DNA of 64,000 bases. Origin: Bosea sp. OAE506. GTDB taxonomy: Bacteria > Pseudomonadota > Alphaproteobacteria > Rhizobiales > Beijerinckiaceae. The notes beneath the pieces were generated by a model, which made no database searches, was not told the DNA's origin, and saw only the letters and a program-made list of their open reading frames with translations. Below are positions 34,313 to 52,207 of the stretch, in pieces. Position 1 is the stretch's first letter. Every line of letters starts with the position of its first letter. Location of the stretch: positions 4,217,001-4,281,000 of the forward strand of contig NZ_JBEPOB010000001.1 in the NCBI RefSeq assembly GCF_040546595.1. The letters are read 5' to 3'. The translations under genes were made by a program, and so were the position numbers.

Positions 34313-35281
34313 TCACTGCTTCGGGACGTCCTTCAGCACCGCCTCCCAGCGCTCGACCTCGGCCTTCACCAACCGGTCCAGATGGGCGGGACCGCGCACC
34401 GAGGCGGGCGGGACCGGGACGGCCAGACCTTCGAACCGCGTGCGGACGAAATCCGAGGAGAGGCTCTTGTCCAGGGCTGCAACCAGGCGCGCGACGATCG
34501 CGGGGCTGGTGTCCTTGTGGACGGCAAGCGCATTCCAGACCTTCATGCCGAACTCGGGCAGGCCAGCCTCCGCGAAGGTCGGCACGTCCGGCGCCTGCGG
34601 CAGGCGGCTGTCGCCCGTCACGGCGAGCGCCGTCACCGAGCCGGCAGCATGCAGCGGCAGAAGCGTCGCGGTCTGGTCGATGACGCCATCGACGAAGCCG
34701 CCGATCAGGTCCTGGATCGCCGGCCCCGCGCCCTTGTAGGGCACGATCGTCGCCTTCAGCCCCGACTGATGCAGCAGGAGCCGCGGCGCCAGATCCGAGG
34801 TCGCGCCGAAGCCGGCCGTGCCGAAGGTCACCTTGTCGCCCTCGGCCTTCGCCTTGGCGATGAAGGCCTTCAGATCGGCGACCGCGCTCTTCTTGCTCGC
34901 CGCCATCACCATCGGCACGTCGGCGACGAGGCCGATGGGCGCGAGGTCAGTGCGGGGGTCGTAGCGCTGGTCCTTGAACAGCGCCCGGCTGGCCGCCATC
35001 GGCCCCATATTGCCGAACAGCACCATATGGCCGTCCGGCTCGCCACGGGTGACGCGCTCGGTCCCGGACCGGCCCCCGGCCCCGCCGACATTCTCGACGA
35101 TGACGTTCTGTCCGAGCACCTTGCCCATCTCCTCGGCGAGGATGCGGGCCAGCACGTCGGTGGTGCCTCCGGGCGCGAAGGGCACGAGCATCGTTACCGG
35201 GCGGTTCGGGTAGCTCTGCGCCGCGGCGGGCGCGATCGCCAGCGCGGCTGCGGCCGCCAGGCCGAGCAACAGGGTTCTCAT
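34313..35281 (-). CDS. TctC/Bug family substrate-binding protein, without its own permease
   Basis: Periplasmic protein of 322 aa. The signal peptide LLLGLAAAAALAIAPAAAQ is followed by RPVTMLVPFAPGGTTDVLARIL and VIVENVGGAGGRSG. I start at the ATG at 35281 because the signal begins there. It is divergent from the GntR regulator, with one of three shared operators between them. There is no adjacent TctAB, so it may dock with the TctAB at 26957 or act in sensing (inference). Confidence 0.92.
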   Translation of the reverse strand: MRTLLLGLAAAAALAIAPAAAQSYPNRPVTMLVPFAPGGTTDVLARILAEEMGKVLGQNVIVENVGGAGGRSGTERVTRGEPDGHMVLFGNMGPMAASRALFKDQRYDPRTDLAPIGLVADVPMVMAASKKSAVADLKAFIAKAKAEGDKVTFGTAGFGATSDLAPRLLLHQSGLKATIVPYKGAGPAIQDLIGGFVDGVIDQTATLLPLHAAGSVTALAVTGDSRLPQAPDVPTFAEAGLPEFGMKVWNALAVHKDTSPAIVARLVAALDKSLSSDFVRTRFEGLAVPVPPASVRGPAHLDRLVKAEVERWEAVLKDVPKQ

Positions 35282-35317
35282 GGGGCCTCCCAGGATATTT
35301 ATCGTTGAATTGCCTGC

Positions 35318-35331
35318 TATCAGACAATCTG
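35318..35331. promoter_or_regulatory. GntR operator copy 1 (CAGATTGTCTGATA on the minus strand)
   Basis: Identical over 14 bases, inverted, to the copy at 36089-36102. It contains the CAGA-TTG-TCTG palindrome. It lies in the 110-base divergent region between the lone TctC and the GntR gene, where it would control both. Confidence 0.75.
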
Positions 35332-35391
35332 CCCGTCGCCGGGTCAAGCGCGGAGATTGACGACGTGCCCGCGCCCGGCAATGTGTTTTCC

Positions 35392-36075
35392 ATGACCGAG
35401 ATGAATCTTCGTATCCCGCGGCAGGCGGCCACGCTGCGTCTCCTGGTGGAGGACCGGATCCGGGAGGCGATCGCCTCCGGGCATTTCCGCCCGGGCCAGC
35501 GCCTCGTCGAGCGCGAACTCTGCGAGCAGATCGGCGTCGGCCGGACCTCGGTGCGCGAGGCTCTTCGGCAGCTCGAGGCGGAGGGCCTCGTCGTGACGGT
35601 GCCGCATCGCGGTCCCGAGGTCTCCTCGATCACCTTCGACGAGGCCCGCCAGCTCTATGATGTGCGCGCCCTGCTGGAGGGCTTCGCCGGCCGCGCCTTT
35701 GCCGAACAGGGCAGCGACGAGGCGATCCGCGAACTGAAGGAAGCGGTAGCGGGGTTCCGACAGGCGGCCCGCAACAGCGACCGCGCCCAGCTCGTCGCGG
35801 CCAAGACGCGCTTCTACAGCGTGCTGATGGAGGGCGCGGGCAATGTCTTCGTCAAGCAGTCGCTGACGATGCTGCATAACCGCATCACGCTGCTGCGCTT
35901 CACCTCGATGACGCAGCAGGGCCGGCTCGACGACAGCGTGGCGGAAATCGAAGCGATCCACGACGCCATCGCGGCGCGGGACGGCGCGCGCGCCGAGCAG
36001 GCCTGCCGGCATCACATCGCGATGGCGGCGAAGGTGGCGCTCGCCGTGCTGGAGCGGGAGCCGCCCCGCGGCTGA
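35392..36075 (+). CDS. GntR family transcriptional regulator (FadR/FCD subgroup)
   Basis: 227 aa. The winged helix-turn-helix segment runs GHFRPGQRLVERELCEQIGV then GRTSVREALRQLEAEG. It is followed by an all-helical FCD ligand domain with the metal-site histidine segments EAIHDAI and CRHHIAMA. I start at the ATG at 35392 since the upstream in-frame extension overlaps the operator region. Three copies of one site (35318, 36084, 44134) mark the promoters around it. It likely represses itself, the lone TctC, the dehydrogenase/hydrolase pair and the Liv importer (inference). Confidence 0.92.
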   Translation: MTEMNLRIPRQAATLRLLVEDRIREAIASGHFRPGQRLVERELCEQIGVGRTSVREALRQLEAEGLVVTVPHRGPEVSSITFDEARQLYDVRALLEGFAGRAFAEQGSDEAIRELKEAVAGFRQAARNSDRAQLVAAKTRFYSVLMEGAGNVFVKQSLTMLHNRITLLRFTSMTQQGRLDDSVAEIEAIHDAIAARDGARAEQACRHHIAMAAKVALAVLEREPPRG

Positions 36076-36083
36076 TGCCGCGA

Positions 36084-36102
36084 ATTGACAGATTGTCTGA
36101 TA
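36084..36102. promoter_or_regulatory. GntR operator copy 2 (ATTGACAGATTGTCTGATA)
   Basis: It lies in the 86-base gap between gntR and the dehydrogenase gene. The first 17 bases are identical to the copy at 44134-44150, 8 kb away. Its presence here argues that the dehydrogenase starts at 36162 and that it has its own regulated promoter. Confidence 0.75.
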
Positions 36103-36161
36103 GCGCCCAGAAATCCGCGCGACGCCGCGCCGCCCTTGGCGCGACGCCGGAGGATCGTTCC

Positions 36162-37067
36162 ATGCCTGACAGCGCCAGCGCCCCTGCCCCCATCGCCTTC
36201 ATCGGCCTCGGCCAGATGGGCCTGCCGATGGCACGGCGGCTGATCGCGGCGGGCTTTGCCGTGCGCGGCGCGGACCCGGCCGAGGCGCCCCGGCAGGCGC
36301 TCGTCGAGGCGGGCGGTACGGCCTTCGCCGATGCGAGGGAAGCTGCTGAAGGCGCCGACATCCTGATCACCATGCTTCCCAATGGCCGCATCGTGCGCGA
36401 TGTGCTGCTCGCCTCGGGCGCCGCACATGCATTGGCCAACGGTGCGCTCGTCATCGACATGAGCTCCTCGGCGCCCACCGATACGGTGGGCCTCGCGGCG
36501 GATCTCGCGCCGCTGGGCCTGCACTTGATCGACGCGCCCGTCTCGGGCGGCGTGAAGCGGGCCATCGACGGCTCGCTCGCGATTATGGCGGGCGGAGCGG
36601 CCGAGGCGGTCGAACGCGCCCGGCCCGTGCTGGCGGCGATGGGCAAGTCGATCTTCGCGACGGGGCCGATCGGCTCCGGCCATGCGATGAAGGCGTTGAA
36701 CAATTACGTCTCCGCGGCGGGGCTGGTCGCGGCCTGCGAAGCTCTTCTGGTCGGCGGGCGCTTTGGCCTCGCACCGGAGACCATCGTCGACGTGCTCAAC
36801 GCCTCGACGGGCCGCAACAACTCGACCGAGGTGAAGATGAAGCCCTTCGTCATCTCGGAGGCCTTCAACTCGGGCTTCTCGCTCGCGCTGATGGCCAAGG
36901 ATCTGCGCATCGCCGCCGATCTCGCCGATCATCTCGAGCTTCCGCTGCCGCAGATCCAGTCGGTGGCCGCGCTGTGGGAGGCGGCCAAGGGCGGGCTCGG
37001 CGCGCAGGCCGACCACACCGAGATTCACCGCCATCTCCAGGCGCTCGCCGCCGGCTCGCGCGGCTGA
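36162..37067 (+). CDS. NAD(P)-dependent beta-hydroxyacid dehydrogenase (3-hydroxyisobutyrate/tartronate semialdehyde reductase type)
   Basis: 301 aa. The cofactor loop is IAFIGLGQMGLPMA (11-24), the substrate loop IDAPVSGGVKRA (123-134) and catalytic Lys177 with Asn181 lies in GHAMKALNNY. The ATG at 36162 follows GGAGGATCG. Enzymes of this family reversibly oxidise a beta-hydroxy acid. It overlaps the hydrolase gene by one base (TGATG). The actual acid is unknown; the module suggests a branched-chain or lactone-derived acid (inference). Confidence 0.9.
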   Translation: MPDSASAPAPIAFIGLGQMGLPMARRLIAAGFAVRGADPAEAPRQALVEAGGTAFADAREAAEGADILITMLPNGRIVRDVLLASGAAHALANGALVIDMSSSAPTDTVGLAADLAPLGLHLIDAPVSGGVKRAIDGSLAIMAGGAAEAVERARPVLAAMGKSIFATGPIGSGHAMKALNNYVSAAGLVAACEALLVGGRFGLAPETIVDVLNASTGRNNSTEVKMKPFVISEAFNSGFSLALMAKDLRIAADLADHLELPLPQIQSVAALWEAAKGGLGAQADHTEIHRHLQALAAGSRG

Positions 37068-38281
37068 TGGGCCTGCGGGCGCGCATCGCCGCGGCGGCCC
37101 GCGACGCCGAACTGCGCCGGTTCGGCTCCGGCCTCGTCGCGGTGCTGCAGATCGAAGGCGCGGGCGACGATATCCTGCTGCGGCTCGATGACGGCGTCGT
37201 GGTCTTCGAGGGCACGGCGGCGCCCGACATCGTGCTGTCGGCGGCAGACGCGGACTGGGCAAGGTTCCTGACCCTGCCGCCGCCGCCGCGCTTCCAGGCC
37301 TTCACGGCGCTGGCGATCGCTAATCCCGCCTTCACCCTCTCCGGCGACCCGCTCGTGATCGCGCAGGCGCGGGCCGTGATCGAGCGGCTGATCGAGCTGG
37401 TCGTGCTGTCGCCCGCCGCTCCGGCGCCCTCCGTCGCCCGGCGAATGAGCCAGATCGAAGGGCGTTATCACCGGGTCGCCCTGCCGGAGGGCGCAGCCGA
37501 GATCTATGTCGAGAGCGCCGGAAGCGGGCGGCCGGTGCTGTTCCTTCACACGGCCGGCGCCGATTCCCGCCAGTTCCACGGACAACTCGCCGATGTCGCT
37601 CTTGCCACCAACTGGCGCCTGATCGCGCCGGACATGCCCTTCCATGGCCGCTCGATGCCACCGGAGGGCTGGCTGGGCGAGCCGTACCGGCTCTCGGGGG
37701 CGCGCTATCTCGGCTGGTGCGCAGCCATCATCGAGCAGGTCATCGGCGAGAAAGCGATCGTGGCCGGCGGCTCGATGGGTGCGGCGCTCGCTCTGCTGCT
37801 GGCGGCGGAGCGGCCCGATCTCGTCGCCGGCGTCATCGCGATCGAGCCCCCCTTCCGCTCGAAGGGGCGACGCAACCCGTACCAGCACCATGTCGGCGTC
37901 CATGCCGGGCTGCACAACGCCGCCTTCGTCCGCGGGCTGATGAGCCCGACGAGCCCGATCGACAGCCGCCGCCGGGCCGCCTGGATCTATTCTCAAGGAG
38001 CGCCCGAGATCTATGCCGGCGACCTCGCCTTCTATTCCGACGAGTTCGACGGCGCGGAGGTAGCGCCGCGCATCGATGCCGCGCGCACGCCGGTGTCCCT
38101 GCTCTGCGGCACCTATGACTATTCGGCGACGCCGGAGGACGGCGCGAAGCTCGCCTCGCTCATTCCGGGCGCCGATCTGCGCGTCATGGAGGGGCTCGGC
38201 CATTTCCCGATGTGCGAGGACGCGGACCTGTTCCGCCCGCATCTGCTGGCGGCGCTGGCCCATGTCGGAGGGCCGCGCTGA
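37067..38281 (+). CDS. Two-domain alpha/beta hydrolase
   Basis: 404 aa, cytoplasmic. Residues 1 to about 115 form a small domain resembling SCP2-like lipid or ligand-binding folds (GDDILLRLDDGVVVFEGTAA). The alpha/beta hydrolase domain follows: oxyanion segment LFLHTAGADSRQ, nucleophile Ser236 in GGSMGAA, an acid near residue 350 (CGTYDYS) and His379 in EGLGHFP. The gene is translationally coupled to the dehydrogenase by a one-base overlap. It probably hydrolyses an ester, lactone or C-C bond in the GntR module (inference). Confidence 0.88.
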   Translation: MGLRARIAAAARDAELRRFGSGLVAVLQIEGAGDDILLRLDDGVVVFEGTAAPDIVLSAADADWARFLTLPPPPRFQAFTALAIANPAFTLSGDPLVIAQARAVIERLIELVVLSPAAPAPSVARRMSQIEGRYHRVALPEGAAEIYVESAGSGRPVLFLHTAGADSRQFHGQLADVALATNWRLIAPDMPFHGRSMPPEGWLGEPYRLSGARYLGWCAAIIEQVIGEKAIVAGGSMGAALALLLAAERPDLVAGVIAIEPPFRSKGRRNPYQHHVGVHAGLHNAAFVRGLMSPTSPIDSRRRAAWIYSQGAPEIYAGDLAFYSDEFDGAEVAPRIDAARTPVSLLCGTYDYSATPEDGAKLASLIPGADLRVMEGLGHFPMCEDADLFRPHLLAALAHVGGPR

Positions 38282-39085
38282 CTAGCGCAGCGGCGGCAGG
38301 TGGAGCGCGACCGTTTCGCCCCCCGAGCCCTCGACGGCGGGGTAGAGCTCCCGCACCAGTGGATCGTGACCGGCGATGATGCGCTCCTCCGCTCCGGCGA
38401 GGCGGCGCGCGGCGCGCCAGCCCTGCGCCAGCGCGCCGAGATCGAAGAAGATCGGAAACGGGTTCTGCCGCTCGATATTGGCCATGAAATGCGCGGCATC
38501 GCTGGCGAGCACGAGCGGCCCACGGGCGGTCTCGACGCGGACCATCTGCAGGCCCGCGCTGTGGCCGCCGACCTTGTGCAGACTCAGGCCCTCGTCGAGT
38601 TCCGCATTGCCGTCATGGAAGACGACGCGCTCGGCATAGACCGCGCGCACCATCCTCACGACATCCTCGACGTCGAAGGGGTAGCGGATGCAGGCCTGGC
38701 ACATGTGCCGGCCGGTCGCGAAGCCTATCTCCGCGTCCTGCAAATGGAAGCGGGCCTTCGGGAAGAGATCGAGATTGCCGGCATGGTCATAGTGGAGATG
38801 CGTGATCACCACGTCCTCCACCGTCTCCGGCGCGACGCCGAGCTGACGCAGCGCGACCTCCACCGGTCTGATCAGCGTGCGCCCTCGCCGGGCCCCACCT
38901 TCGGGGGTGAAGCCCGTGTCGACCACGACGACCCGCTCGCCGCGCCGCACGACCCAGACGAAATAGTCCATCGGCATGGGCGCGTCGTGCGGATCGGGCG
39001 CACGGATGAAGTTCTCGAAGGCCCGGCGTTCATGCACGGCATAGCGCAGGGCGAAGACCTCCCAGCCGGCCATGGCCGGTCTCAC
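38282..39085 (-). CDS. Metallo-beta-lactamase fold hydrolase (AHL lactonase-like)
   Basis: 267 aa, no signal peptide. The dinuclear metal motif HLHYDHAGN has His96, His98, Asp100 and His101. Further ligands are in GGHSAGLQMV and in the aspartate of LASDAAHF, then GHDP near the C-terminus. The arrangement is AiiA/AttM-like. In a catabolic operon it may open a lactone instead of quenching quorum signals (inference). It starts at the end of the carboxymuconolactone decarboxylase-like gene (4-base overlap), downstream in the Liv operon. Confidence 0.85.
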   Translation of the reverse strand: MRPAMAGWEVFALRYAVHERRAFENFIRAPDPHDAPMPMDYFVWVVRRGERVVVVDTGFTPEGGARRGRTLIRPVEVALRQLGVAPETVEDVVITHLHYDHAGNLDLFPKARFHLQDAEIGFATGRHMCQACIRYPFDVEDVVRMVRAVYAERVVFHDGNAELDEGLSLHKVGGHSAGLQMVRVETARGPLVLASDAAHFMANIERQNPFPIFFDLGALAQGWRAARRLAGAEERIIAGHDPLVRELYPAVEGSGGETVALHLPPLR

Positions 39086-39477
39086 TTGTCGGCCGGAACG
39101 GCTCCCTCGGCCTTCAGCACCTCATGGGCCGCCTTGAAGGCGTCGAGGCCGGCCGGGATGCCGCAATAGACGGTCGCGTGGAGCAGGATTTCCTTGATCT
39201 CGTCGACGGTGACGCCATTGGCGAGCGCGCCCTTGACGTGGAGCTTGAGCTCGGCCGGCTTGCCGAGCGCGGTCAGCATGGCGAGGTTCAGCATCGAGCG
39301 CGTCTTGTGCTCGAGGCCCGGCCGCGTCCAGGCATAGCCCCAGCACCATTCGGTGGTGATGTTCTGGAAGGCCATCATGAAGTCGTCGGCCTTGGCGAGG
39401 CTGCCATCGACATAGTCGGTGCCGAGCACCTTGCGGCGGACTTCGAGGCCCTTGTTGAACTGATCACTGTGCGACAT
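39082..39477 (-). CDS. Carboxymuconolactone decarboxylase family protein (PcaC-like)
   Basis: Small all-helical protein of 131 aa. It has KTRSMLNLAMLTALGK and the HVKGALANGVTVDEIKEILLHATVYCGIPAGLDAF stretch typical of the family. It lacks the CxxC of AhpD-type peroxidases, which favours a PcaC-like lyase or isomerase role. I start at the ATG at 39477 (MSHSDQFNKG). It sits between LivF and the lactonase-like gene in one run. Confidence 0.87.
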   Translation of the reverse strand: MSHSDQFNKGLEVRRKVLGTDYVDGSLAKADDFMMAFQNITTEWCWGYAWTRPGLEHKTRSMLNLAMLTALGKPAELKLHVKGALANGVTVDEIKEILLHATVYCGIPAGLDAFKAAHEVLKAEGAVPADK

Positions 39478-39514
39478 CGGCCTTGATCCCTTTCGTGGTG
39501 GTGTTCGGTGGTCC

Positions 39515-40234
<720 letters not shown>

Positions 40235-40244
40235 CGCACCCTCC

Positions 40245-40967
40245 TCACGCCGCCGACCGGCCGAGATAGGCTTCGATCACGGCCGGATCGCGCGCGATCT
40301 CGGCCGGCGTGCCGGTGGCGATCCTCTGGCCGAAATTCAGCACGACCAGCCGGTCGCAGAGCGCCATGATCGCGCGCATGTGGTGCTCGACCACGACCAG
40401 CGTCAGCCCCTCCGCGCGCAGCTGGCGCAGCAGCGCCATGAAGGCGTCCATCTCGGCATGGTTGAGCGCCGCCATCGCCTCGTCGAGCAGCAGGACCCGC
40501 GGCTCGGTGCAGAGCGCGCGCGCCACCTCGACGCGGGCCCGCTCCGGAAAGGAGAGATCGCGCGCGAGCTTGCCGGCGATCGCGCCGATGCCGACCCGCT
40601 CGAGGCAGCGCCTGGCCAGTTCGCGGGCCTCGGGAATCGCATGGCGCATCAGCCCGCCGGTCAGGACATTGTCGAGGACCGTCGAGTCGAGGAAGAGCGC
40701 GACGTTCTGGAAGGTCTTGACCATGCCCGCCGCGGCGATCTTGTGCGGCTTGAGGCCGACGAGGTCACAACCGTCGAGCCGGATCGTGCCGGAATCGGGC
40801 CGGTGCAGGCCGACCAGCGTCGAGAACAGCGTCGTCTTGCCGGCGCCATTGGGGCCGATCAGCCCGAGGATCTCGCCCGGCGCCACGGACAGCGACACAT
40901 CCGACAAGGCCTGCAGCCCGCCGAAGCGCTTGCCGAGCCCGGTGACCTGGAGCAGAGGGGCGACCAT
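40245..40967 (-). CDS. livG: Branched-chain amino acid-type ABC transporter ATP-binding protein LivG
   Basis: 240 aa. Walker A GPNGAGKTT, Q-loop KTFQNVALF and Walker B VLLLDEAMAALN are present. The ABC signature reads LSFPERARVEVARAL instead of LSGGQ or LSYGQ, a degenerate form seen in some LivG groups. The ATG at 40967 overlaps the livM stop (ATGA). A longer open frame upstream is the frame-shifted livM and not a true fusion. Confidence 0.9.
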   Translation of the reverse strand: MVAPLLQVTGLGKRFGGLQALSDVSLSVAPGEILGLIGPNGAGKTTLFSTLVGLHRPDSGTIRLDGCDLVGLKPHKIAAAGMVKTFQNVALFLDSTVLDNVLTGGLMRHAIPEARELARRCLERVGIGAIAGKLARDLSFPERARVEVARALCTEPRVLLLDEAMAALNHAEMDAFMALLRQLRAEGLTLVVVEHHMRAIMALCDRLVVLNFGQRIATGTPAEIARDPAVIEAYLGRSAA

Positions 40968-41951
40968 CAGCGTTCCTCCCGGCGCAGCAGGCGCCGGATC
41001 CGCGGGCCGATCGCCATGAAGCCGCGCGGCTCGACCAGGATGACGAGGATCAGCAGCACACCAAAGACCAGTTGCGACAGCCCGGCCGCCTGGGCGGAGA
41101 AGACCTGATTGGCGATCTCCTCCAGCGGGATGACGAAGAAGGCGCCGAGGATCGGGCCCGCCGCCGTGCCGATGCCACCGACGATGGCGATCATCGCCAT
41201 CCGCACCGAGATCGAGGCGACGCCGAAGACGGTGTCGGGATCGAAAAAGAACTGGAACTGGGCGTAGAGCGTGCCGAGCGCCGCTGTCAGCGCGCCCGAG
41301 ATCACCGCCGCGACGATCTTGGTGCGGGTGGTGTCGACGCCGATGACCTCGGCCGCGTCGGCATTCTCCTTGATCGCCCGCAGGCGATAGCCGAGGCGGC
41401 TGCGCTTGATCGCGATGAAGATCAGCGTCACCACGACGAGCGCCCCCAGCATCAGCCAGTAGGAGGCGCGCGTATCGGCAAACTGCATCAGGCCGAGGGC
41501 TCGGCTTGGCGAAGGGGATGGAGATGCCGACGGGCCCGCCGGTCAGACCGCCCCAGCTGTTGGCGACGACGCGCATCACCTCGCCAAAGGCGAGCGTCGC
41601 CAGGGCGAAGTAGTGACCGCGCAGCCGCATCGTCGGCAGGCTGATCAGCAGGGCGGCAAGCCCGCCCAGCACCGCCGCCGCGACCATGCCGAGCCAAGGC
41701 GTCATGCCGAAATGGATCAAAAGCAGCGTCGAGGTGTAGGCGCCGATGCCGAAGAAGGCGGCGTGGCCGAGCGAAATCTGGTTGGCGAGGCCGGCGACGA
41801 TGTTCCAGGCCTGCGCCATGGCGGCGAAAAGCAGCGCCAGGCAGAGGATGCGGATGCCGTAGCCGCGCGGCTCGAAGGCGAAAGGCAGGGCGATGGCGAG
41901 TGCCGCCAGCAGCGCGAGGCCGGCCGCCTGCCGAACGGACGGCGCGTTCAT
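40967..41951 (-). pseudogene. livM: LivM-type permease, single-base frameshift
   Basis: Inner-membrane permease, annotated across a frameshift. From the ATG at 41951 it encodes LAALAIALPFAF... through GGLTGGPVGISIPFAKPS. Then the frame diverges; the correct continuation LGLMQFADTRASYWLMLGAL and the end RRLLRREER are in the next frame, stopping at 40967. One surplus G in GAGGGC (41497-41499) restores 327 aa if removed. All other Liv genes are intact. It could be a sequencing error or a real mutation; Liv uptake would fail in the latter case. Confidence 0.82.
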
Positions 41952-42808
41952 CGGGCCGCCCCCAGCAGGCCCTTCGGCCGGAAGGCCAGCACCGCGATGA
42001 AGACGACGAAGAGGACGAGGTTCTGCAGCTGGATCGGGAAGACCAGCGCCGAGAGCGACTGGATGATGCCGACGGCGAGACCGCCGACCACCGCGCCCGC
42101 GACCGAGCCCAGCCCGCCCAGCACCACCACGGTGAACATCAGCACGGCGAATTGCGTGCCGACCGTGGGCGAGGCCGTCAGATAGGGCAGGATCACCGCC
42201 CCGCCGAAAGCGGTGAGCCCGACGCCAAGCGCGAAGGCGAGCATGTGCATGCGGTCGGCGTCGATGCCCATCAGCCGCGCGGCCATCGGATCCTGCGCCG
42301 TGGCGCGCATGGCGCGGCCAAACCAGCTCGACTTCAGGAAGAGCCAGAGCGCCAGCCCCGAGGCCACCGACATGGCGAAGGCGGCGAGATAGGGCACCGA
42401 GATGAAAAGCGGCCCGAGTTGCAGCGACGAGGTCTGGTAGGGCGTCGAGACCGAGCGGAAGCCCGATCCGAACATGAGGAGCGCGGCGTTCTCCAGCACG
42501 ATCAGCAGGCCGACGGTGAGGAAGATCTGCGCCACCTCGGGTGCCTTAAGCACGCGCTTGATCAGCACGCGCTGGATCGCGGCGCCGAGCACGAACACCA
42601 CGGCGAAGGCGAGCGGTGCCGCCAGCAGCGGATCGAGCCCGAGCCAGGCCCAGGCATAGTACGCCACGAACATGCCGAGCATCAGGAACTCCGCCTGCGC
42701 GAAGTTCACGATGCCCATCACGCCGAAGACCAGCGTCAGGCCGATCGAGATGACGGCGTAGACACCGCCGATCATCAAGCCGTCCAGGATGGCCTGAACC
42801 ACCGCCAT
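41948..42808 (-). CDS. livH: Branched-chain amino acid-type ABC permease LivH
   Basis: 286 aa, about eight helices. Family segments are GLMIGGVYAVISIGLTLVFG at the N-terminus, FAQAEFLMLG, RAMRATAQDPMAARLMGID (the ATPase-contacting loop) and LGGLGSVAGAVVGGL. It overlaps livM by 4 bases and follows livK by 40 bases. Confidence 0.93.
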   Translation of the reverse strand: MAVVQAILDGLMIGGVYAVISIGLTLVFGVMGIVNFAQAEFLMLGMFVAYYAWAWLGLDPLLAAPLAFAVVFVLGAAIQRVLIKRVLKAPEVAQIFLTVGLLIVLENAALLMFGSGFRSVSTPYQTSSLQLGPLFISVPYLAAFAMSVASGLALWLFLKSSWFGRAMRATAQDPMAARLMGIDADRMHMLAFALGVGLTAFGGAVILPYLTASPTVGTQFAVLMFTVVVLGGLGSVAGAVVGGLAVGIIQSLSALVFPIQLQNLVLFVVFIAVLAFRPKGLLGAAR

Positions 42809-42848
42809 AGCCGTCTCTCTCCCCTGCCCGGCCCGACCGCCTTTCGGC

Positions 42849-44057
42849 TCAGCCGCCCCAGACAGCCTTTGCCTTGGCGACGTCGGCGGGCCAGACGGTG
42901 ACGAGCTCCTTGTTGCGCCACTGGACCATGACGGGGACGGAGAGCGTGTTGAGGCCAGTCTTGTCGAACTGGACGGCGCCGCCCGTCATGGCCTTGTTCC
43001 AGCCGCCCTCGAAGCGGGCGCCCTGCAGGGCCTTGCGCAAATCCTCGGGCTTGGCCGACTTGGCCTTCTCCATCGCCTGGGCCAGCACGTCCATGCAGAC
43101 GGCGTGCTCCAGCGCTTCATGGACCATGAAGTAGCCGAAACGCTTGCGGAACCGCTCGGTCAGCTCCGGCGCAAGGTCGTAATTGGCCGGCGAGATCGAG
43201 AGGACGCCCTCGGCGAATTCGCCCAGCCCCTTCTCGAAATCGGGGATGACGTAGCCGGCGGCGCCGCCGATGGCGGGGATGGTGATGCGCTGCTGGCGCA
43301 TCGCGCGGATGATCTGCAGGGAATCATTGAGATAGGAGACCGGGAACACCGCCTGGGCACCCGAGGCGCGCAGCTTGTTGATCAGCGGCGTGACGTCGGT
43401 GATGCCCAGCGGATAGGCGTCGTCCATGACGATCTGGACGCCGGCCGCCTTGGCGCCCTCGCGCAGGCCGCCGGCCTGCGAGGTGCCATAGGCCGTGTCC
43501 TCATACATGATGGCGATGCGCTCGAGCTTCTGGCCGGCACTCGCGGCGATGGCGGCCGTGCCGTCGAACTGCGCCTTGCCGATCACCGAGGCCTTGGCGA
43601 CGACCTGGAAGATGTTCTCGAAGCCGCGCCCGGTGATCTGGTCCGAGAAGGACATGGTCAGCAGCGGCACGCCACGACGCTCGGTGACCTCCGAGATCGC
43701 GATGGTCAGCGACGAGGCGAAGGCGCCGAGGATCGCCACGACATCGTTCTGGGTCAGCAGGCGCTGGGCGACATTGGCGGCGGTGGTCGGCGTCGAGGTC
43801 GAGTCGGCGATGACCAGATTGATGCGGGCCCCGCCGAGCGCCTTGATGCCGCCGGCGGCGTTGATCTCGTCAGCGACCAGTTCGATGCCGTTACGCGAAT
43901 TGATCCCGAACTGGGCGTTGGCCCCCGACAGCGGCAGAATGACGCCGACATTGACGGCCTTGCCCTGGGCGACAGCGTCCCGGACGACATAGGGCGCGGC
44001 GATGGCACCGGCGGCGCCGAGCATCAGGCCACGGCGAGTGGGCGACAGCTTGATCAT
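42849..44057 (-). CDS. Branched-chain amino acid-type ABC substrate-binding protein LivK-like (Tat-exported)
   Basis: Periplasmic protein of 402 aa. A Tat signal (SPTRRGLMLGAAGAIAAP) precedes the type I binding fold VNVGVILPLSGANAQFGINSRNG. I start at the ATG at 44057, which follows GGAGGAAG. It is first in the minus-strand Liv run, 77 bases downstream of GntR operator copy 3. The family binds amino acids, amides and aromatic acids; the ligand is not predicted. Confidence 0.92.
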   Translation of the reverse strand: MIKLSPTRRGLMLGAAGAIAAPYVVRDAVAQGKAVNVGVILPLSGANAQFGINSRNGIELVADEINAAGGIKALGGARINLVIADSTSTPTTAANVAQRLLTQNDVVAILGAFASSLTIAISEVTERRGVPLLTMSFSDQITGRGFENIFQVVAKASVIGKAQFDGTAAIAASAGQKLERIAIMYEDTAYGTSQAGGLREGAKAAGVQIVMDDAYPLGITDVTPLINKLRASGAQAVFPVSYLNDSLQIIRAMRQQRITIPAIGGAAGYVIPDFEKGLGEFAEGVLSISPANYDLAPELTERFRKRFGYFMVHEALEHAVCMDVLAQAMEKAKSAKPEDLRKALQGARFEGGWNKAMTGGAVQFDKTGLNTLSVPVMVQWRNKELVTVWPADVAKAKAVWGG

Positions 44058-44133
44058 CTCTTCCTCCACGATCTGCCTTCTGCGGGCATCAGCGGAGACA
44101 GGCATCCCATAGTCGTCGGCGCCCTGTCAACTG

Positions 44134-44153
44134 ATTGACAGATTGTCTGACAA
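44134..44153. promoter_or_regulatory. GntR operator copy 3 (ATTGACAGATTGTCTGACAA)
   Basis: It lies upstream of the Liv operon. Its first 17 bases are identical to copy 2 at 36084. The part TTGTCTGACAA (44143-44153) is a perfect palindrome and fits the FadR/FCD consensus TNGTNNNACNA exactly. It links the Liv operon to the GntR at 35392. Confidence 0.8.
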
Positions 44154-44231: not shown

Positions 44232-46634
44232 TCAGGCGGCCAGGACCGCCGGGCCGGGCGCCGGGTCGAGATCGGCCCAGCCGTCGCGGGCGTGATAGCG
44301 GGCGGCGACCTGCCCGGCATCGTCCATCGCGAAGAGCGCGAGCCAGCCCTGATCGAACAGCGCCCGCAGATTGGGGTGCTTTTCGAGCACGCCAAGGATC
44401 GCCTCGCGCGGGGCGGCGATGACGACGGAGAGGCGCAGCGGCTCGTGCATCAGCCGCTCGCCGTCATGGACGGACTGCCAGGGCAGGCCGCCGCGCAGCA
44501 CGCCGCCATTGCCCTCGAAGACGCCGATCCCGCCGACGACGTTGTGCAGCAGCTTGTTGCCGGCACCGAAGGCCGCCGGGGCGACGGCGGAGCCGTAATA
44601 CTGCAGGCTGATCCAGCTCGCGACGACGACGGGCGCCGTCAGGATCAGCTCGAGCACCTTGAACCCGCTGTCGGCGCGCCAGTCATAGCTGTGCAGGAAG
44701 GCGCGCCCGGCCAGGGAGGCCCCCGCCGTGTGCCGGCGCGGGGCGGCGATGAAGGCCTTGCAGCCGGCCAGCCCCCATTCCGGCCGCACCTGCGCCCAGT
44801 CCTGGCCACGCCGGGCGACGTCGCCCTCGCCGGCAGCACCTGGCAGGCGCAGAGCGCGCTCGGTGCGGGCGAGCCGTCCGGCCGAGGCCAGCAGCGAATC
44901 CAGCCTGGCGAGGTCGGCAGCGTGCGAGGGCGACAGCGCCGCCCGGTCGAACAGCGTGATCTCGTCGCTGACCGTGTCGTGCAGCCCGGCGACGAAGCGC
45001 GTATCGGCCGGGACGTCGATCCCCTGCGCCGCGAGCCCGATCCGGACCTCGTCGTCGTTCAGCAGCCCGGCCAGCAGGCGGGCGTTGACGTCGCCCGGGA
45101 AGCCGCCGCAGGCGCCGCATTGCAGGGCGCTGGCATGGGCGTTATTGACCAGCCGCGCGCCATGGCCGGCGAGCAGCACCAGCCGGGCGAAGCGCGAGGT
45201 CAGCGACATCGCCCGCAGGATCGTCGCCGCCATCTCGATGCGCTGCGCCGCCGTGAGCGAAGCGTCGAGCCGCGGCGCCGCCCGGTCGCCGTCCGGGCGG
45301 CGATCGGCCGTGACGGAGTCGTGGAAGAGCTTCCAGAGATAGAGCGGCCCGCTGGCCTCGACGAAGGCGAAGGAGGAGACCGCGGCGCGCTTGAAGCGGC
45401 CCCAGGCGCGCCTGGCGCGAGCACCGATGCGCTGCTTCTCCTCCGCGGCCTCGCCGGGCACGTCGCAGGTAAAGGAGCTAACGCCGGGCTTTAGGAGGAC
45501 CGGCAGCCGCGCCTCGCCGCCCACCGAACCGAGCCGGCGATGCGAGACGCCGATGCCGAAGAAGCCGGCGAAGCCCAGCGTCTCCGTGCCCGGATCAAGC
45601 GATTCCAGTGTGCGGCGGATGATCTCGGAGCGGACGTCGATGCAGAAGGCAGCCTGCACCGAGGGGCGCGCGGCCGGCTCCTTTTGCGAGACGGCCGGCC
45701 TCCAGGCCGCGAAGAAGCGGCGCTGCGCGGCGCGATCATAGGCCTCCTGCAGCAGCGCGTCGATGATCTGGTCGGTGCTCGGCTCGACCGGTGCGGCATG
45801 GGCATCGATCGCCTGCCGCCAGGGCTCGGCGATCTGCCGCCCGAACTGCGCCTGCAGGGCTGCCTCGAAGGCGAGCGCGATCGCGAGCAGGTCGGTGATG
45901 GTCTGGTCGGTGCCGCCGTCGCGCTCGGCCTGCCAGTGCAGCTGGCGGGCATATTGCGCCCAGCCGCCGAGCCCGGTCAGGAGCGTGGTGAAATAGCTCT
46001 CGGCCGCGGCCTGCGGCAGGCCGAGCGCAAGGCTTGCGCGCCGGATCGCTGCCGGTGCCGCCAGCGGCTCCCGCGAGATGCGCAGACAGAAGCCCTTCAG
46101 CCCCGCGATCTCGGGCGAAAGGTCCTGCGTCGCGAAGGCGCGCCAGGATTCATAGGCGCCGGTCGCGATAGTCTTGGGCCACATCGCCTGGCCAAGATCG
46201 AAATGGCCCGAGGCCCATGCACCGATCCGGTCCGCGATAAAGCCAGGCCAGTCGATGCCGGTGGCGTCGGCGCAGAGCGCGGCGACGGTCGGGATCGCGG
46301 CGACAGGCGCCGGGTCCTCTGCGAGGGCCGCCTCGACCGTCGCGAGACCGGGCGCATCCGGATCGTCGGCGACGGCAGCGGCCAGATCAGCCGGCGTGAT
46401 CTCTCCCGCCCGCCAGCGCTCCCGGTAGAAGCTGCGCGGCATGGTGACGGGGATTCCTCCGGCCCTGCCAAGGCGGGCCGCCGCACCGGGCAGCGTTTCC
46501 CCGGCGAGACCGAGGAAGGGGTTCACCGCGACGGAGGCCGAGAGGGGCCAGAGCGGCGGGATGATGCGGGCGGCGCGATCGGCCTGCGCCATCAGGGCTG
46601 CCTGCAGGGCGTCCTGTCCGGGCTGCGCGTTCAT
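44232..46634 (-). CDS. dabA: Inorganic carbon accumulation protein DabA (DUF2309 family)
   Basis: 800-aa cytoplasmic, membrane-associated protein related to beta-carbonic anhydrases. With DabB it forms an energy-coupled system that traps CO2 as bicarbonate. The zinc site and neighbouring catalytic residue fit the family: Cys331 and Asp333 in CIDVRSE, His491 in LAGHG, Cys506 in LQCGACGG, with the usual spacing between the last two (15). The ATG at 46634 overlaps dabB by 4 bases. Length matches the family. The apparent longer fusion frame with dabB is an artefact. Confidence 0.93.
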   Translation of the reverse strand: MNAQPGQDALQAALMAQADRAARIIPPLWPLSASVAVNPFLGLAGETLPGAAARLGRAGGIPVTMPRSFYRERWRAGEITPADLAAAVADDPDAPGLATVEAALAEDPAPVAAIPTVAALCADATGIDWPGFIADRIGAWASGHFDLGQAMWPKTIATGAYESWRAFATQDLSPEIAGLKGFCLRISREPLAAPAAIRRASLALGLPQAAAESYFTTLLTGLGGWAQYARQLHWQAERDGGTDQTITDLLAIALAFEAALQAQFGRQIAEPWRQAIDAHAAPVEPSTDQIIDALLQEAYDRAAQRRFFAAWRPAVSQKEPAARPSVQAAFCIDVRSEIIRRTLESLDPGTETLGFAGFFGIGVSHRRLGSVGGEARLPVLLKPGVSSFTCDVPGEAAEEKQRIGARARRAWGRFKRAAVSSFAFVEASGPLYLWKLFHDSVTADRRPDGDRAAPRLDASLTAAQRIEMAATILRAMSLTSRFARLVLLAGHGARLVNNAHASALQCGACGGFPGDVNARLLAGLLNDDEVRIGLAAQGIDVPADTRFVAGLHDTVSDEITLFDRAALSPSHAADLARLDSLLASAGRLARTERALRLPGAAGEGDVARRGQDWAQVRPEWGLAGCKAFIAAPRRHTAGASLAGRAFLHSYDWRADSGFKVLELILTAPVVVASWISLQYYGSAVAPAAFGAGNKLLHNVVGGIGVFEGNGGVLRGGLPWQSVHDGERLMHEPLRLSVVIAAPREAILGVLEKHPNLRALFDQGWLALFAMDDAGQVAARYHARDGWADLDPAPGPAVLAA

Positions 46635-49233: not shown

Positions 49234-51114
49234 TCAGATGAAAGCGATCGAGATCGCCGGGACCAGTGCGATGGCGAGCAGACCGAGCAGCAGCGCCCCG
49301 AGATAGAACCAGACCGTCTTCATCGCGGCGTCGGGATCGACCTTGCCGATCGAGCAGGCGATGTAGTGGCCGATGCCGATGGGCGGGGTGAACAGGCCGA
49401 TATTCATCGAGACCACCACCACCATGGCGTAATGCACCGGGTGGATGCCGAGATCCTTGGCGATCGGGAACATCAGCGGCGCCAGCAGCACGATCGCCGG
49501 CAGGCCCTCGAGCAGGCAGCCCAGTGTCAGGAAGACCGCGATCGTCACCGCCATGTAGACGATCCAGCCGCCGGGAAGGCCCTTCATCACCGCAGCGAGA
49601 TATTGCGCGAAGCCGGTCTGGGTTAGCACCCAGGCGGCGGCCGAGGCCGTGCCGAGGATGATCAGGATCGCGCCGGTCATGGCGGCGGTCTCGATCAGCA
49701 TGCGGTAGATCTGCGCGGCCTTGAGCCCGCCATAGAGGATCATGCCCACGATCAGGGCGTAGACCACGGCGATGGTGGAGACTTCGGTGGCCGTCGCAAC
49801 GCCCTCCGTCACCGCGCCCCGGACGAGGAAGGGCAGGACAAGCGCGGGCGCGGCGACCACCAGCGCCTTGCCGATCAGTGCGAGCGGGGCGCGGCGCACC
49901 CCTTCCAGCGCCTCGCCCCGCGCCTTCCAGCGGGCGGCCAGGGCGAGAATCAGCAGCAGGAAGAAGGCGACGACGAAGCCGCTGGCAAACAGCGCCGCGA
50001 TCGAGATGCCAGCGACGGAGCCGATGACGATGAGCACGATCGAGGGCGGCACCGTGTCGGCCATGATCGCGCCCGTCCCGAGCAGGGCGACCATCTCCTC
50101 GGGCTTGTTGCCGCGGCGCTTCATCTCCGGGAACAGCGCCGGCGCCACAGTGGCCATATCCGAGACTTTCGAGCCGGAGATGCCGGAGACGAGATAGAGC
50201 GAACCGAGCATGACATAGGACATGCCGGCCCGAACATGGCCGAACATCGAGGCGAGGAAATCGACGATCGCCTTGCCCATGCCCGTTGCATCGAGGATGC
50301 AGCCCAGCAGCACGAAGACCGGCACCGAAAGCAGGATCAGGCTCGACATGCCCTCGTCCATGCGTCCGACGATCACCGTGACCGGCAGCTTGGTCGAGAA
50401 GACGAGGAAGGCCATCGCGCCGGCGCCGAAGCAGAAGGCGATCGGCACGCCCATGGCGAGGCAGAGCGCGATGACGCCGACCAGCAGGATCAGGATATTG
50501 GCCTTGCCGAGTCCGGCGAGCACCGGCGAGAGCAGCCAGAGCAGGCCGATGGTGGCCGCCACCAGCACAACCGCGGTCACGAGGTCGCGGCGCGGCGCCT
50601 CGGTCCAGAGTTTCACCGCCAGCACGAAGAGCATCAGCCCGATGCCGATCGGGATGCCGGCGATGCGCCAGGCGGTGGAGATGTTGAGCGCCGGCGAGGT
50701 CACGGGGAACTCGTCGATCCAGTGCTCGATGGCAGAGGGCAGCAGCGCGGCGAGGAAGGCCCCGATGACGACGAGGCCGGTCGTCTCCAGCAGCGAGCGG
50801 GCGCGCGGGCCGATCGCATTGATCACCAGCGCCAGGCGCAGATGCTCGCCGCGGTCGATGGCGATGACCGCGCCGAGCATGACGATCCAGAGGAACAGGA
50901 AGGACGCGATCTCGTCGGCCGCCGTGATCGGCGACGACAGGACATAGCGCCAGAACACCGCGACGAGGACGAGGCCGATCAGCCCGACCAGCAGCAGGGC
51001 CGCGAAGGCCTCCAGCGGCGCCATCAGGAAGCGCAGCCGCGCGCTGGGTCGCGGCGGGACCTGCTCCTCGATGGCGAAGGCCTGGGTTTCGCTGATCGGC
51101 GTTGCGTCTGTCAT
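49234..51114 (-). CDS. TRAP transporter fused small/large permease (DctQM)
   Basis: 626-aa inner-membrane protein. Residues 1 to about 180 are DctQ (four helices, with ITAADEIASFLFLWIVMLGAVIAI). From about 195 it is DctM, with KLPVTVIVGRMDEGMSSLILLSVPVFVLLG, SGISGSKVSDMATVAP and MNIGLFTPPIGIGHYI. The fusion is a known arrangement. It imports an organic or sugar acid with sodium or proton. It is last in the RuBisCO-like protein operon. Confidence 0.94.
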   Translation of the reverse strand: MTDATPISETQAFAIEEQVPPRPSARLRFLMAPLEAFAALLLVGLIGLVLVAVFWRYVLSSPITAADEIASFLFLWIVMLGAVIAIDRGEHLRLALVINAIGPRARSLLETTGLVVIGAFLAALLPSAIEHWIDEFPVTSPALNISTAWRIAGIPIGIGLMLFVLAVKLWTEAPRRDLVTAVVLVAATIGLLWLLSPVLAGLGKANILILLVGVIALCLAMGVPIAFCFGAGAMAFLVFSTKLPVTVIVGRMDEGMSSLILLSVPVFVLLGCILDATGMGKAIVDFLASMFGHVRAGMSYVMLGSLYLVSGISGSKVSDMATVAPALFPEMKRRGNKPEEMVALLGTGAIMADTVPPSIVLIVIGSVAGISIAALFASGFVVAFFLLLILALAARWKARGEALEGVRRAPLALIGKALVVAAPALVLPFLVRGAVTEGVATATEVSTIAVVYALIVGMILYGGLKAAQIYRMLIETAAMTGAILIILGTASAAAWVLTQTGFAQYLAAVMKGLPGGWIVYMAVTIAVFLTLGCLLEGLPAIVLLAPLMFPIAKDLGIHPVHYAMVVVVSMNIGLFTPPIGIGHYIACSIGKVDPDAAMKTVWFYLGALLLGLLAIALVPAISIAFI

Positions 51115-51187
51115 CGCTGCCTCGCTGGGGATGGACGCGGAAAAAATCGGTCGCGCCTATTTGGGCGCGGCCGAAACGGGATCGGCG

Positions 51188-52207
51188 TCAGGCGAGTTTG
51201 CCGACGGCCTCTTCGAGCAGGGCCCAGGGCTCGTCACCGAACTTGCCGCGCCACTCCTTGTAGAAGCCGGCCTGCGACAAAGCCTCGCGGAAGGGCGCCG
51301 GATTGACCTCGTTGAAGATCATGCCGGCGGCGGCGAGGTCCTTCTGCAAGGCGATGTTCTGCGCGGCGACATCGGTCCGCTCCGCTTCGCAGGCGCTGTT
51401 CAGGATGCGGCTGACAGTCGCCTGGATGTCGGCCGGCACCTGGCCCCAGGAGCGGCGGTTGATCAGGAACCACCAGCCGTCCCACATATGGTTGGTGACG
51501 GAGCAGTATTTCTGCACCTCGAAGAGCTTGGCTGCCGAGATGATCGCCGGCGGGTTCTCCTGCCCGTCGACCACCTTGGTCTGAAGCGCCGAATAGACCT
51601 CGGCGAAGTTCAGCCCCGTCGGCGAGGCGCCGAGCGACTTGAACAGTGAGAGCCAGAGCGCACTGACCGGCACGCGGATCTTCATGTTCTTCAGGTCTTC
51701 CGGCTGGACGATCGGCCGCGAGCTGTTGGTGATCATCCGGAAGCCGTTGTCCCAGATCTTGTCCATGACGACGAAGCCACCACGGGTGATCTGCTGGCGC
51801 AGATGGGCGCCGAGCTTGCCGTCCATCGCGCTCCAGAGCGCCGGATAGTCCTTGAAGGCGAAACCGACGCCGGAGATTGCGGCGGCGGGAATGATCGTCG
51901 AGAGCACGTTGACGCCCGAATTCAGGAAGCATTCGAGCGCGCCCGAGCGCAGCTGCGAGAGCATGTCGGAATCGGCGCCGAGCTGGTTGTTCGGGAAGAG
52001 CTGGAACTCGAACTTGCCGTTGGTCTGCTCCTTCACCTGCTCCGCCGCCTTGGTGAGGTGGACGTTGAGCGGGTGCGAGGCGGGCACATTGGTGCCGATC
52101 TTGAACGTATGCTCGGCAGCATGGGCATAGCGCAGCGGCAGGGCCGTGGAGATCGCGCCCGCACCCGCGAGGGTGGCGAAGCGGCGGCGGCTGATCGTGA
52201 GCGTCAT
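51188..52207 (-). CDS. TRAP transporter substrate-binding protein (DctP family, Tat-exported)
   Basis: 339 aa. The Tat signal is ISRRRFATLAGAG. The DctP-type body runs HTFKIGTNVPASHPLNVHLT, then the conserved MKIRVPVSALW with its carboxylate-binding arginine, and NPPAIISAAKLFEVQKYCSV. It lies 73 bases upstream of the fused permease. Given the acid-sugar enzymes in the operon, its ligand is probably a sugar acid (inference). Confidence 0.93.
   Translation of the reverse strand: MTLTISRRRFATLAGAGAISTALPLRYAHAAEHTFKIGTNVPASHPLNVHLTKAAEQVKEQTNGKFEFQLFPNNQLGADSDMLSQLRSGALECFLNSGVNVLSTIIPAAAISGVGFAFKDYPALWSAMDGKLGAHLRQQITRGGFVVMDKIWDNGFRMITNSSRPIVQPEDLKNMKIRVPVSALWLSLFKSLGASPTGLNFAEVYSALQTKVVDGQENPPAIISAAKLFEVQKYCSVTNHMWDGWWFLINRRSWGQVPADIQATVSRILNSACEAERTDVAAQNIALQKDLAAAGMIFNEVNPAPFREALSQAGFYKEWRGKFGDEPWALLEEAVGKLA

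Follow-up and report, generated by a model that had tools for sequence, protein, structure and literature searches.

What controls a set of catabolic genes in which three copies of one short sequence each precede a gene of the set? This question is raised by a locus of Bosea sp. OAE506, lying within a 64,000-nucleotide stretch (contig NZ_JBEPOB010000001.1, positions 4,217,001 to 4,281,000; henceforth the window). The module comprises tctC, a gntR regulator gene, a gene for a beta-hydroxyacid dehydrogenase of the HIBADH superfamily, genes for a two-domain hydrolase ending in an alpha/beta hydrolase (ABH), a metallo-beta-lactamase (MBL)-fold hydrolase and a carboxymuconolactone decarboxylase (CMD) family protein, and the Liv importer genes livKHMGF. 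With good confidence, we read the three sites as operators of the product of gntR, which lies between them; this would make the module a local regulon of the FadR/FCD type. The sites, their uniqueness in the genome, their conservation and their co-occurrence with the regulator were observed directly; binding, repression, an effector and a single pathway are what we infer from them.

The 11-mer CAGATTGTCTG was found exactly three times in the window, at 35321-35331 (-), 36089-36099 (+) and 44139-44149 (+), where Markov models of the window's composition predict 0.014-0.018 exact copies. At up to two mismatches, 17 window matches stood against 10.4 expected, and 17 was reached in 5 of 100 shuffles; because this count is close to chance, only the exact copies are informative in the window. 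Genome-wide counts were made with CAGATTGTCTGA and CAGATTGTCTGAYA. In the whole genome, a single contig of 5,008,847 bases (G000), CAGATTGTCTGA occurs exactly three times, always within the module, with 0.19-0.29 copies expected in 5.0 Mb under the same kind of model, and CAGATTGTCTGAYA gave three exact matches, none at one mismatch and ten at two. The exact site is thus not one of many unrelated copies scattered over the genome. Copy 1, CAGATTGTCTGATA (35318..35331, -), lies in the divergent gap between tctC and gntR; copy 2, TTGACAGATTGTCTGATA (36085..36102, +), between gntR and the HIBADH gene; and copy 3, TTGACAGATTGTCTGACA (44135..44152, +), upstream of livK. Measured from the 14-mer, the start codons of tctC, gntR (divergent), the HIBADH gene and livK are 36, 60, 59 and 81 bp away, and copy 1 may serve both genes of its divergent pair. 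Copies 2 and 3 share 17 identical bases, ATTGACAGATTGTCTGA, and TTGTCTGACAA at 44143-44153 is a perfect TNGTNNNACNA. The initial annotation, made from the letters of the window, had described an operator in three copies, each preceding a module gene, with 17 bases common to two of them and a copy near 44143 fitting TNGTNNNACNA; all of this is borne out by the exact copies, which stand 36-81 bp before genes.

The same arrangement was found in close relatives. Scanning genome contigs for the GntR protein yielded 13 loci: 11 carry the module or parts of it (GntR 73-94% identical), and two, with GntRs of 28-29% identity, do not. Module-bearing relatives include Bosea sp. Leaf344, Root381 and Tri-44, B. 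psychrotolerans, a Bradyrhizobium and metagenome-assembled genomes. Across 12 genomes, sites recur at the same three places, filling 32 of 33 expected slots (tctC, 11/11; HIBADH gene, 11/12; start of the livK or CMD operon, 10/10, one with CMD first). These slots, from the window, L045-L054 and L113, were assigned by hand with sites taken at up to two mismatches; loci L114-L118 are on the same contigs as L052, L053, L046, L047 and L048 and were counted once, and some of the 12 genomes are near-identical, so the slots do not represent 12 independent events. The sequence GATTGTCTG was invariant in all 32 sites. Outside the motif, columns carried 0.02-0.44 bits upstream of the half-site described below and mostly less than 0.35 bits downstream, except for 0.63 at +20 and 0.94 at +21. 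In the Leaf344 locus (L046), tblastn detected no liv or ABH gene, and the third site lies directly before CMD-MBL. In the Bradyrhizobium locus neither tctC nor the tctC site was found. Three variant sites in L055, each with two mismatches, were kept apart from the slot count, and the loci with GntRs of 28-29% (L056, L057) lack the site even when two mismatches are allowed.

The site also accompanies the regulator gene across genomes. In a family sample of 397 genomes, the exact 14-mer was present in 14 and a reversed control pattern in 2. Among 46 genomes of the same genus, seven encode a GntR orthologue (E<1e-100); six of these seven have the exact 14-mer, versus none of the 39 others (Fisher p 7.5e-7); in the seventh, G311, the sites deviate from it at one or two positions. 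At L108 and L109, GntRs of 59-61% identity lie beside CMD and HIBADH genes (in L109 also MBL), with variant sites at two to three mismatches. In another genus, L110 (GntR 43%) holds the full set in rearranged order (TctC, LivKHMGF, ABH, GntR, CMD at 88%, HIBADH and MBL), with related sites before tctC (one mismatch) and between gntR and CMD (two mismatches).

Sites of the 12 genomes gave the consensus TTGACAGATTGTCTGATAGC. Its core, TTGTCTGAYAR, resembles the TKGT-N3-ACMA pattern of the FadR subfamily, whole at copy 3 and in its left half at copies 1 and 2: scored as TKGT/ACMA boxes with a 3-nt gap, TTGTCTGACAA of copy 3 is exact, and TTGTCTGATAG of copies 1 and 2 has the left box only. At the right-box position where the consensus has C, 28 of the 32 sites have T. 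An extra half-site, TTGAC, which the initial annotation had missed, precedes the core at copies 2 and 3. Passages of PMC4494728 describe TKGT/ACMA boxes with a 3-nt gap in the FadR subfamily and extra half-sites 7-12 nt away in many groups; TTGAC fits such a half-site. Rhizobial sites often show a mirror half-site as well, TTGACAGATT-N7-AATCTGTCAA. Given the similar sites near more distant FCD regulators (see below), the core alone is a general FadR-like motif, with the composite site the more specific element. The hexamer TTGACA of copies 2 and 3 is also -35-like and is oriented toward its own gene at copy 2 only.

The regulator itself (35392..36075, +; 227 aa) has the FadR/FCD architecture, an N-terminal winged helix followed by a C-terminal FCD domain (Pfam GntR 73.7 bits, FCD 94.9 bits). 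Together with the TKGT-N3-ACMA-like core, the site in the divergent gap beside the regulator gene and the extra half-site near the core, this likens the module to FadR/FCD local regulons of the LldR, DgoR, GlcC and PdhR type, as far as they are described in passages of PMC4494728. In the Bosea system, by contrast, copies 1 and 2 have a degenerate right core half, and the FCD pocket departs from the usual consensus: in an alignment, K..FY replaces D..FH and the second His is not conserved, rhizobial sister proteins included. Asp and His metal ligands are usual in the FCD pocket, though not universal in the subfamily. The lack of most of them therefore bears on the type of effector and not on membership, and this sequence feature suggests that the pocket may be metal-free. 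In an NCBIfam scan covering the enzymes and the regulator, GntR matched 26 models and scored well under the cut-off of each of the 25 shown. The closest was the PhnR-type TIGR03338, at 138.5 versus 271.5 bits, and the module, unlike a PhnR-type system, has no phosphonate genes.

We propose that GntR would bind the composite site TTGACAG-ATTGTCTGAYAR, that is, a FadR-type core TTGTCTGAYAR with a one-sided extra half-site at copies 2 and 3. It would thereby control three promoters: that of tctC together with divergent gntR, that of the operon encoding HIBADH and the SCP2/alpha-beta hydrolase, and that of a livKHMGF-CMD-MBL operon. Repression is the most likely mode, with GntR located at or next to each promoter and released when an imported compound or an early catabolic intermediate binds the FCD domain. 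The effector may be carboxylate-like, as for most of its subfamily.

Sister regulators with the same operator were found on rhizobial plasmids. In tblastn searches against plasmids, GntRs of 63-64% identity filled the best 20 of 382 records; for the two-domain hydrolase, the best 25 of 95 records lay at 57-62% identity and came mostly from plasmids of Phaseolus isolates. After five duplicate or near-duplicate rows (L113, L114, L115, L100, L121) had been dropped, the Bosea-type and rhizobial regulators formed one clade of 22 of the 43 rows in a tree (support 97/96), with an inner group of 20 rows (95/85). The recognition region is nearly unchanged in an alignment of the rhizobial and agrobacterial plasmid GntRs (60-64% identity). 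On p42d, pRphaR744a, pAtCFBP5507a and pRtrCIAT899a, the operator (0-2 mismatches) lies before the ABH gene, before a divergon of short-chain dehydrogenase/reductase and flavin reductase genes with CMD and a luciferase-like monooxygenase, and before an MBL-alcohol dehydrogenase-MBL set; three of the four also have a site at a chemoreceptor gene and three at a sugar ATP-binding cassette (ABC) transporter. At up to four mismatches, loci L126-L130 contained 9, 6, 3, 3 and 6 matches, one of them inside mcpC, versus 1, 1, 0, 1 and 1 for the reversed pattern. In this comparison and in that of the teuB plasmids below, "upstream of" was judged from hand-typed gene lists, complete or partial depending on the locus. 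Outside the cluster, two stretches of 50 kb on the CIAT 899 plasmid had 0 and 1 matches at that threshold versus 1 and 1 for the control, and the 14-mer at up to two mismatches was absent from these 100 kb (L124+L125).

Other features of the plasmid regions were noted. In three plasmids, an exact operator lies between genes for a GH3-family glycosidase and a chemoreceptor (L120 5403, L121 5405, L123 9327; -), which may point to a glycoside substrate and to chemotaxis in the rhizobial counterpart. The flavin reductase of pRphaR744a was typed as RutF-like and the monooxygenase as RutA-like. On p42d, the flavin reductase and monooxygenase genes have, within a few kb, genes annotated as RibBA-type riboflavin synthesis and as an NAD(P)H-dependent oxidoreductase (L119 21304-23119, +), which perhaps supply flavin mononucleotide.

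A second plasmid GntR (60% identity) heads an operon of HIBADH, CMD, a 127-aa protein, ABH, a sugar ABC transporter and succinate-semialdehyde dehydrogenase (SSADH). A comparison of shallow profiles pairs the 127-aa protein with the SCP2-like domain of the window hydrolase (probability 82%, E 1.1e-5), which suggests that the Bosea SCP2-ABH fusion is probably split into two genes on the rhizobial plasmids. The transporter operon that follows is annotated teuB, teuA, teuC1, teuC2 in Sinorhizobium fredii GR64; teuB is named in CP002245.1 and was assigned by homology on the other plasmids. In all four plasmids compared (CIAT 899, GR64, CFN 42 and HAMBI 105), teuB is preceded by the operator at 120-126 bp, a distance taken from near the middle of the site; their GntRs are 60, 60, 63 and 61% identical to the window GntR. 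The teuB sites have 0-1 mismatches to the 18-mer TTGACAGATTGTCTGMTA and the HIBADH sites of the same plasmids none. We consider, from these sequence comparisons, that the sister regulators very probably control the teu exudate-uptake operon via the same operator, a link that the initial annotation had missed.

According to passages of papers citing Rosenblueth et al. 1998, teu is induced by bean root exudate and is required for nodulation competitiveness (PMC3557214). In passages of PMC4125696, it is placed on the symbiotic plasmids of CFN42 and CIAT652 and was not found in Mim1, and passages of PMC8581550 record a rise of ABC transporter genes earlier reported as induced by bean exudate in R. 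tropici. No teu regulator or compound was named in the literature found, most subscription journals and the 1998 original being outside its scope, and no literature on the Bosea cluster or its operator was found. The Bosea module resembles the teu locus in its operator, shared with teuB and with the HIBADH-CMD-SCP2-like-ABH-ABC-SSADH operon of the same plasmids, and in its sister GntR. It differs from that locus in its importers, which are Liv and TctC and not the sugar-type teu transporter, in the fusion of SCP2 and ABH into one protein, in the presence of an MBL gene and in the lack of SSADH.

Turning to the genes of the window, tctC (34313..35281, -) encodes a lone periplasmic solute-binding protein of the Bug/TctC family (Pfam TctC, 159 bits). 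Downstream of gntR are the HIBADH-superfamily gene (36162..37067, +; Pfam NAD_binding_2 and NAD_binding_11) and the two-domain hydrolase gene (37067..38281, +). On the other strand lie genes for an MBL-fold, N-acyl homoserine lactone (AHL)-lactonase-like hydrolase with an HLHYDH motif (38282..39085, -; identified by Pfam Lactamase_B, sequence and PDB relatives) and a PcaC-like CMD family protein of 131 aa (39082..39477, -; Pfam CMD), followed by livF (39515..40234, -; ABC_tran), livG (40245..40967, -), livM (40967..41951, -), livH (41948..42808, -; BPD_transp_2) and livK, for a periplasmic binding protein (42849..44057, -; Peripla_BP_6). A frameshift overlooked in the initial annotation divides livM into pieces at 41500-41951 and 40967-41488 and creates an apparent LivM-LivG fusion, the open reading frame (ORF) 40245-41951, in which the ABC_tran and BCA_ABC_TP_C domains of LivG were detected. 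livM is continuous in the relative L113, and its two parts are at frame-consistent spacing in L045; the frameshift may be a true mutation or an assembly error. Two neighbors fall outside these genes: past copy 3, and outside the regulon, 44232-45494 (-) matches the C-terminal half of DabA, a probable inorganic carbon transporter subunit, and 49234-52207 (-) encodes a tripartite ATP-independent periplasmic (TRAP) transporter, with DctQ and DctM in one ORF plus DctP.

The hydrolase, assigned from Pfam, alignment, models and fold searches, combines two domains. The N-terminal domain (about residues 1-118) has no Pfam match; its predicted model (pLDDT 85) gave 22 fold matches at E<=0.001, 19 of SCP2 type and three alkylsulfatases, the best being UbiJ (E 4.3e-6), with TM scores of 0.40-0.62 across matches when normalised by the model. 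The model thus indicates an SCP2-like fold. Models and fold searches identify the C-terminal part as an ordinary alpha/beta hydrolase, whose presumed triad, assigned by eye as Ser236 (in GGSMG), Asp351 and His379, is invariant in 28 sequences (the window and 27 chosen from 120 listed). These came from a protein search that scored 7999 candidates and gave 765 relatives at E<=1e-30, of which the top 120 were listed. At E<=1e-90, a class-wide scan recovered the hydrolase in one of 385 genomes, the window's own, and so added no contexts.

None of the four enzymes reached a curated NCBIfam cut-off for a named function. The HIBADH-family protein stayed under all 11 models matched (TIGR01692, 3-hydroxyisobutyrate dehydrogenase, 185.3 vs 291.6 bits). 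A CMD family protein and an alpha/beta hydrolase within one regulon recall PcaC and PcaD of the beta-ketoadipate pathway, but both score too low (TIGR02425, 141.7 vs 155.7 bits; TIGR02427, enol-lactonase, 49 vs 255.85 bits) and the Bosea module has no other pca genes; this role was rejected on the missed cut-offs. The MBL protein shares HLHYDH and a lactonase-like fold with AttM/BlcC and AidB, but fell far below the N-acyl homoserine lactonase models (AidB 68.6/360, AiiA 55.2/375, AttM 51.5/390 bits). A gamma-butyrolactone (Blc/Att) pathway fits loosely with the lactonase-like MBL, dehydrogenases and SSADH of the rhizobial and agrobacterial regions; it was kept as an idea only, because the window MBL and dehydrogenase reach no cut-off. 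A trigonelline-type pathway, suggested by the RutA- and RutF-like flavin enzymes of rhizobia and a hydrolase match to E-2-(acetamidomethylene)succinate hydrolase, was not adopted: the Bosea module has neither flavin enzyme and other hydrolases match better.

Several observations weigh against reading the sites as operators of this GntR. Copies 1 and 2 are degenerate in the right core half, copy 1 has no TTGAC half-site, and the HIBADH-slot site is absent from L049, the sole miss among the slots. Eight family genomes outside the genus (L063-L070) each have one unlinked exact CAGATTGTCTGACA; none of the module's genes was found in these 3-kb loci, save Liv-type ATPases (44-47%) in L063, and the lone copies are perhaps operators of other FCD regulators. 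At 21 loci with GntRs of 40-48% (L087-L107), the exact 14-mer was not found, and seven have sites at up to two mismatches (L105 at one). Several of these seven are FadR-type palindromes, so that without the half-site the core is not specific; one of the 21 loci, L100, is the L110 module. On the plasmids, a few weaker matches lie inside genes (L119 at 2323, L127 at 37395). The livM frameshift means that the Liv importer may be non-functional in this isolate. Finally, no sigma-70-like promoter was recognised by a consensus scan at the three sites, and the TTGACA of copy 3 is directed away from livK. On these two grounds, the blocking of a -35 box was dropped as a general mechanism, and for the same reasons repression via promoter occlusion is a family-based guess.

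The alternative that fares best leaves the regulon real and divides its genes among two or more substrates, for example different acids for TctC and for the Liv importer, with no single pathway; we hold this to be possible, if somewhat doubtful. Importers differ among relatives, with Liv and TctC in Bosea and a sugar-type ABC transporter in rhizobia; no tctC was detected in the L051 locus, nor ABH and liv in L046; and the rhizobial operator precedes several distinct transport and enzyme operons. Against this, the whole set recurs, rearranged, in the distant genus of L110, suggesting a joint function. The initial annotation had proposed one regulon serving one pathway. Synteny, footprints and co-occurrence uphold the first part for tctC, gntR, HIBADH, hydrolase, MBL, CMD and Liv; the second part, a pathway for a lactone-forming or branched acid, is still a hypothesis. 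No enzyme reaches a named function, and the core in relatives is joined to different importers and oxygenases.

GntR might instead be an activator or a dual regulator, which we regard as rather unlikely. The orientation and distance of the site vary among the three promoters, and the scan recognised no promoter; on the other side, FadR-subfamily regulators of catabolic operons are mostly repressors.

It is improbable that the site belongs to another FCD-type GntR, or is a shared promoter element, with the local GntR not its binder. Copies 2 and 3 do start with the -35-like TTGACA, and sites of the TTGTCTGACAA type also occur close to the genes of more distant FCD regulators. Yet a promoter element of general use should recur elsewhere in 5 Mb, which this site does not, the scan saw no sigma-70-like promoter at the sites, and the site tracks gntR within the genus, across genera and onto plasmids. 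That the three copies are due to chance or are a dispersed repeat is hardly credible: no observation favored it, and against it stand the expected number of exact 11-mers, the lack of a further exact 12-mer in the genome and the conservation at orthologous places, which already refutes it.

GntR-controlled catabolic clusters are common, and the Bosea regulon, as an operator-regulator unit of its FadR-type GntR, is ordinary in kind. Its value is that the site, the regulator and the enzyme core can be traced from an unstudied Bosea cluster to teu, a nodulation-competitiveness locus of bean rhizobia, where the shared operator and the sister gntR offer a handle on what the regulator senses. We tentatively propose, as a plausible rather than a firm reading, that one regulator-operator pair in Bosea, Bradyrhizobium and the bean-rhizobial plasmids senses the same type of plant-exudate compound. 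The sister protein would then be the missing regulator of teu, and the Bosea module a stripped, non-symbiotic version whose enzyme core (HIBADH family, CMD, SCP2-ABH, MBL) degrades the compound or its aglycone. If this is true, the effector of GntR would name the long-unknown bean-exudate compound imported by teu.

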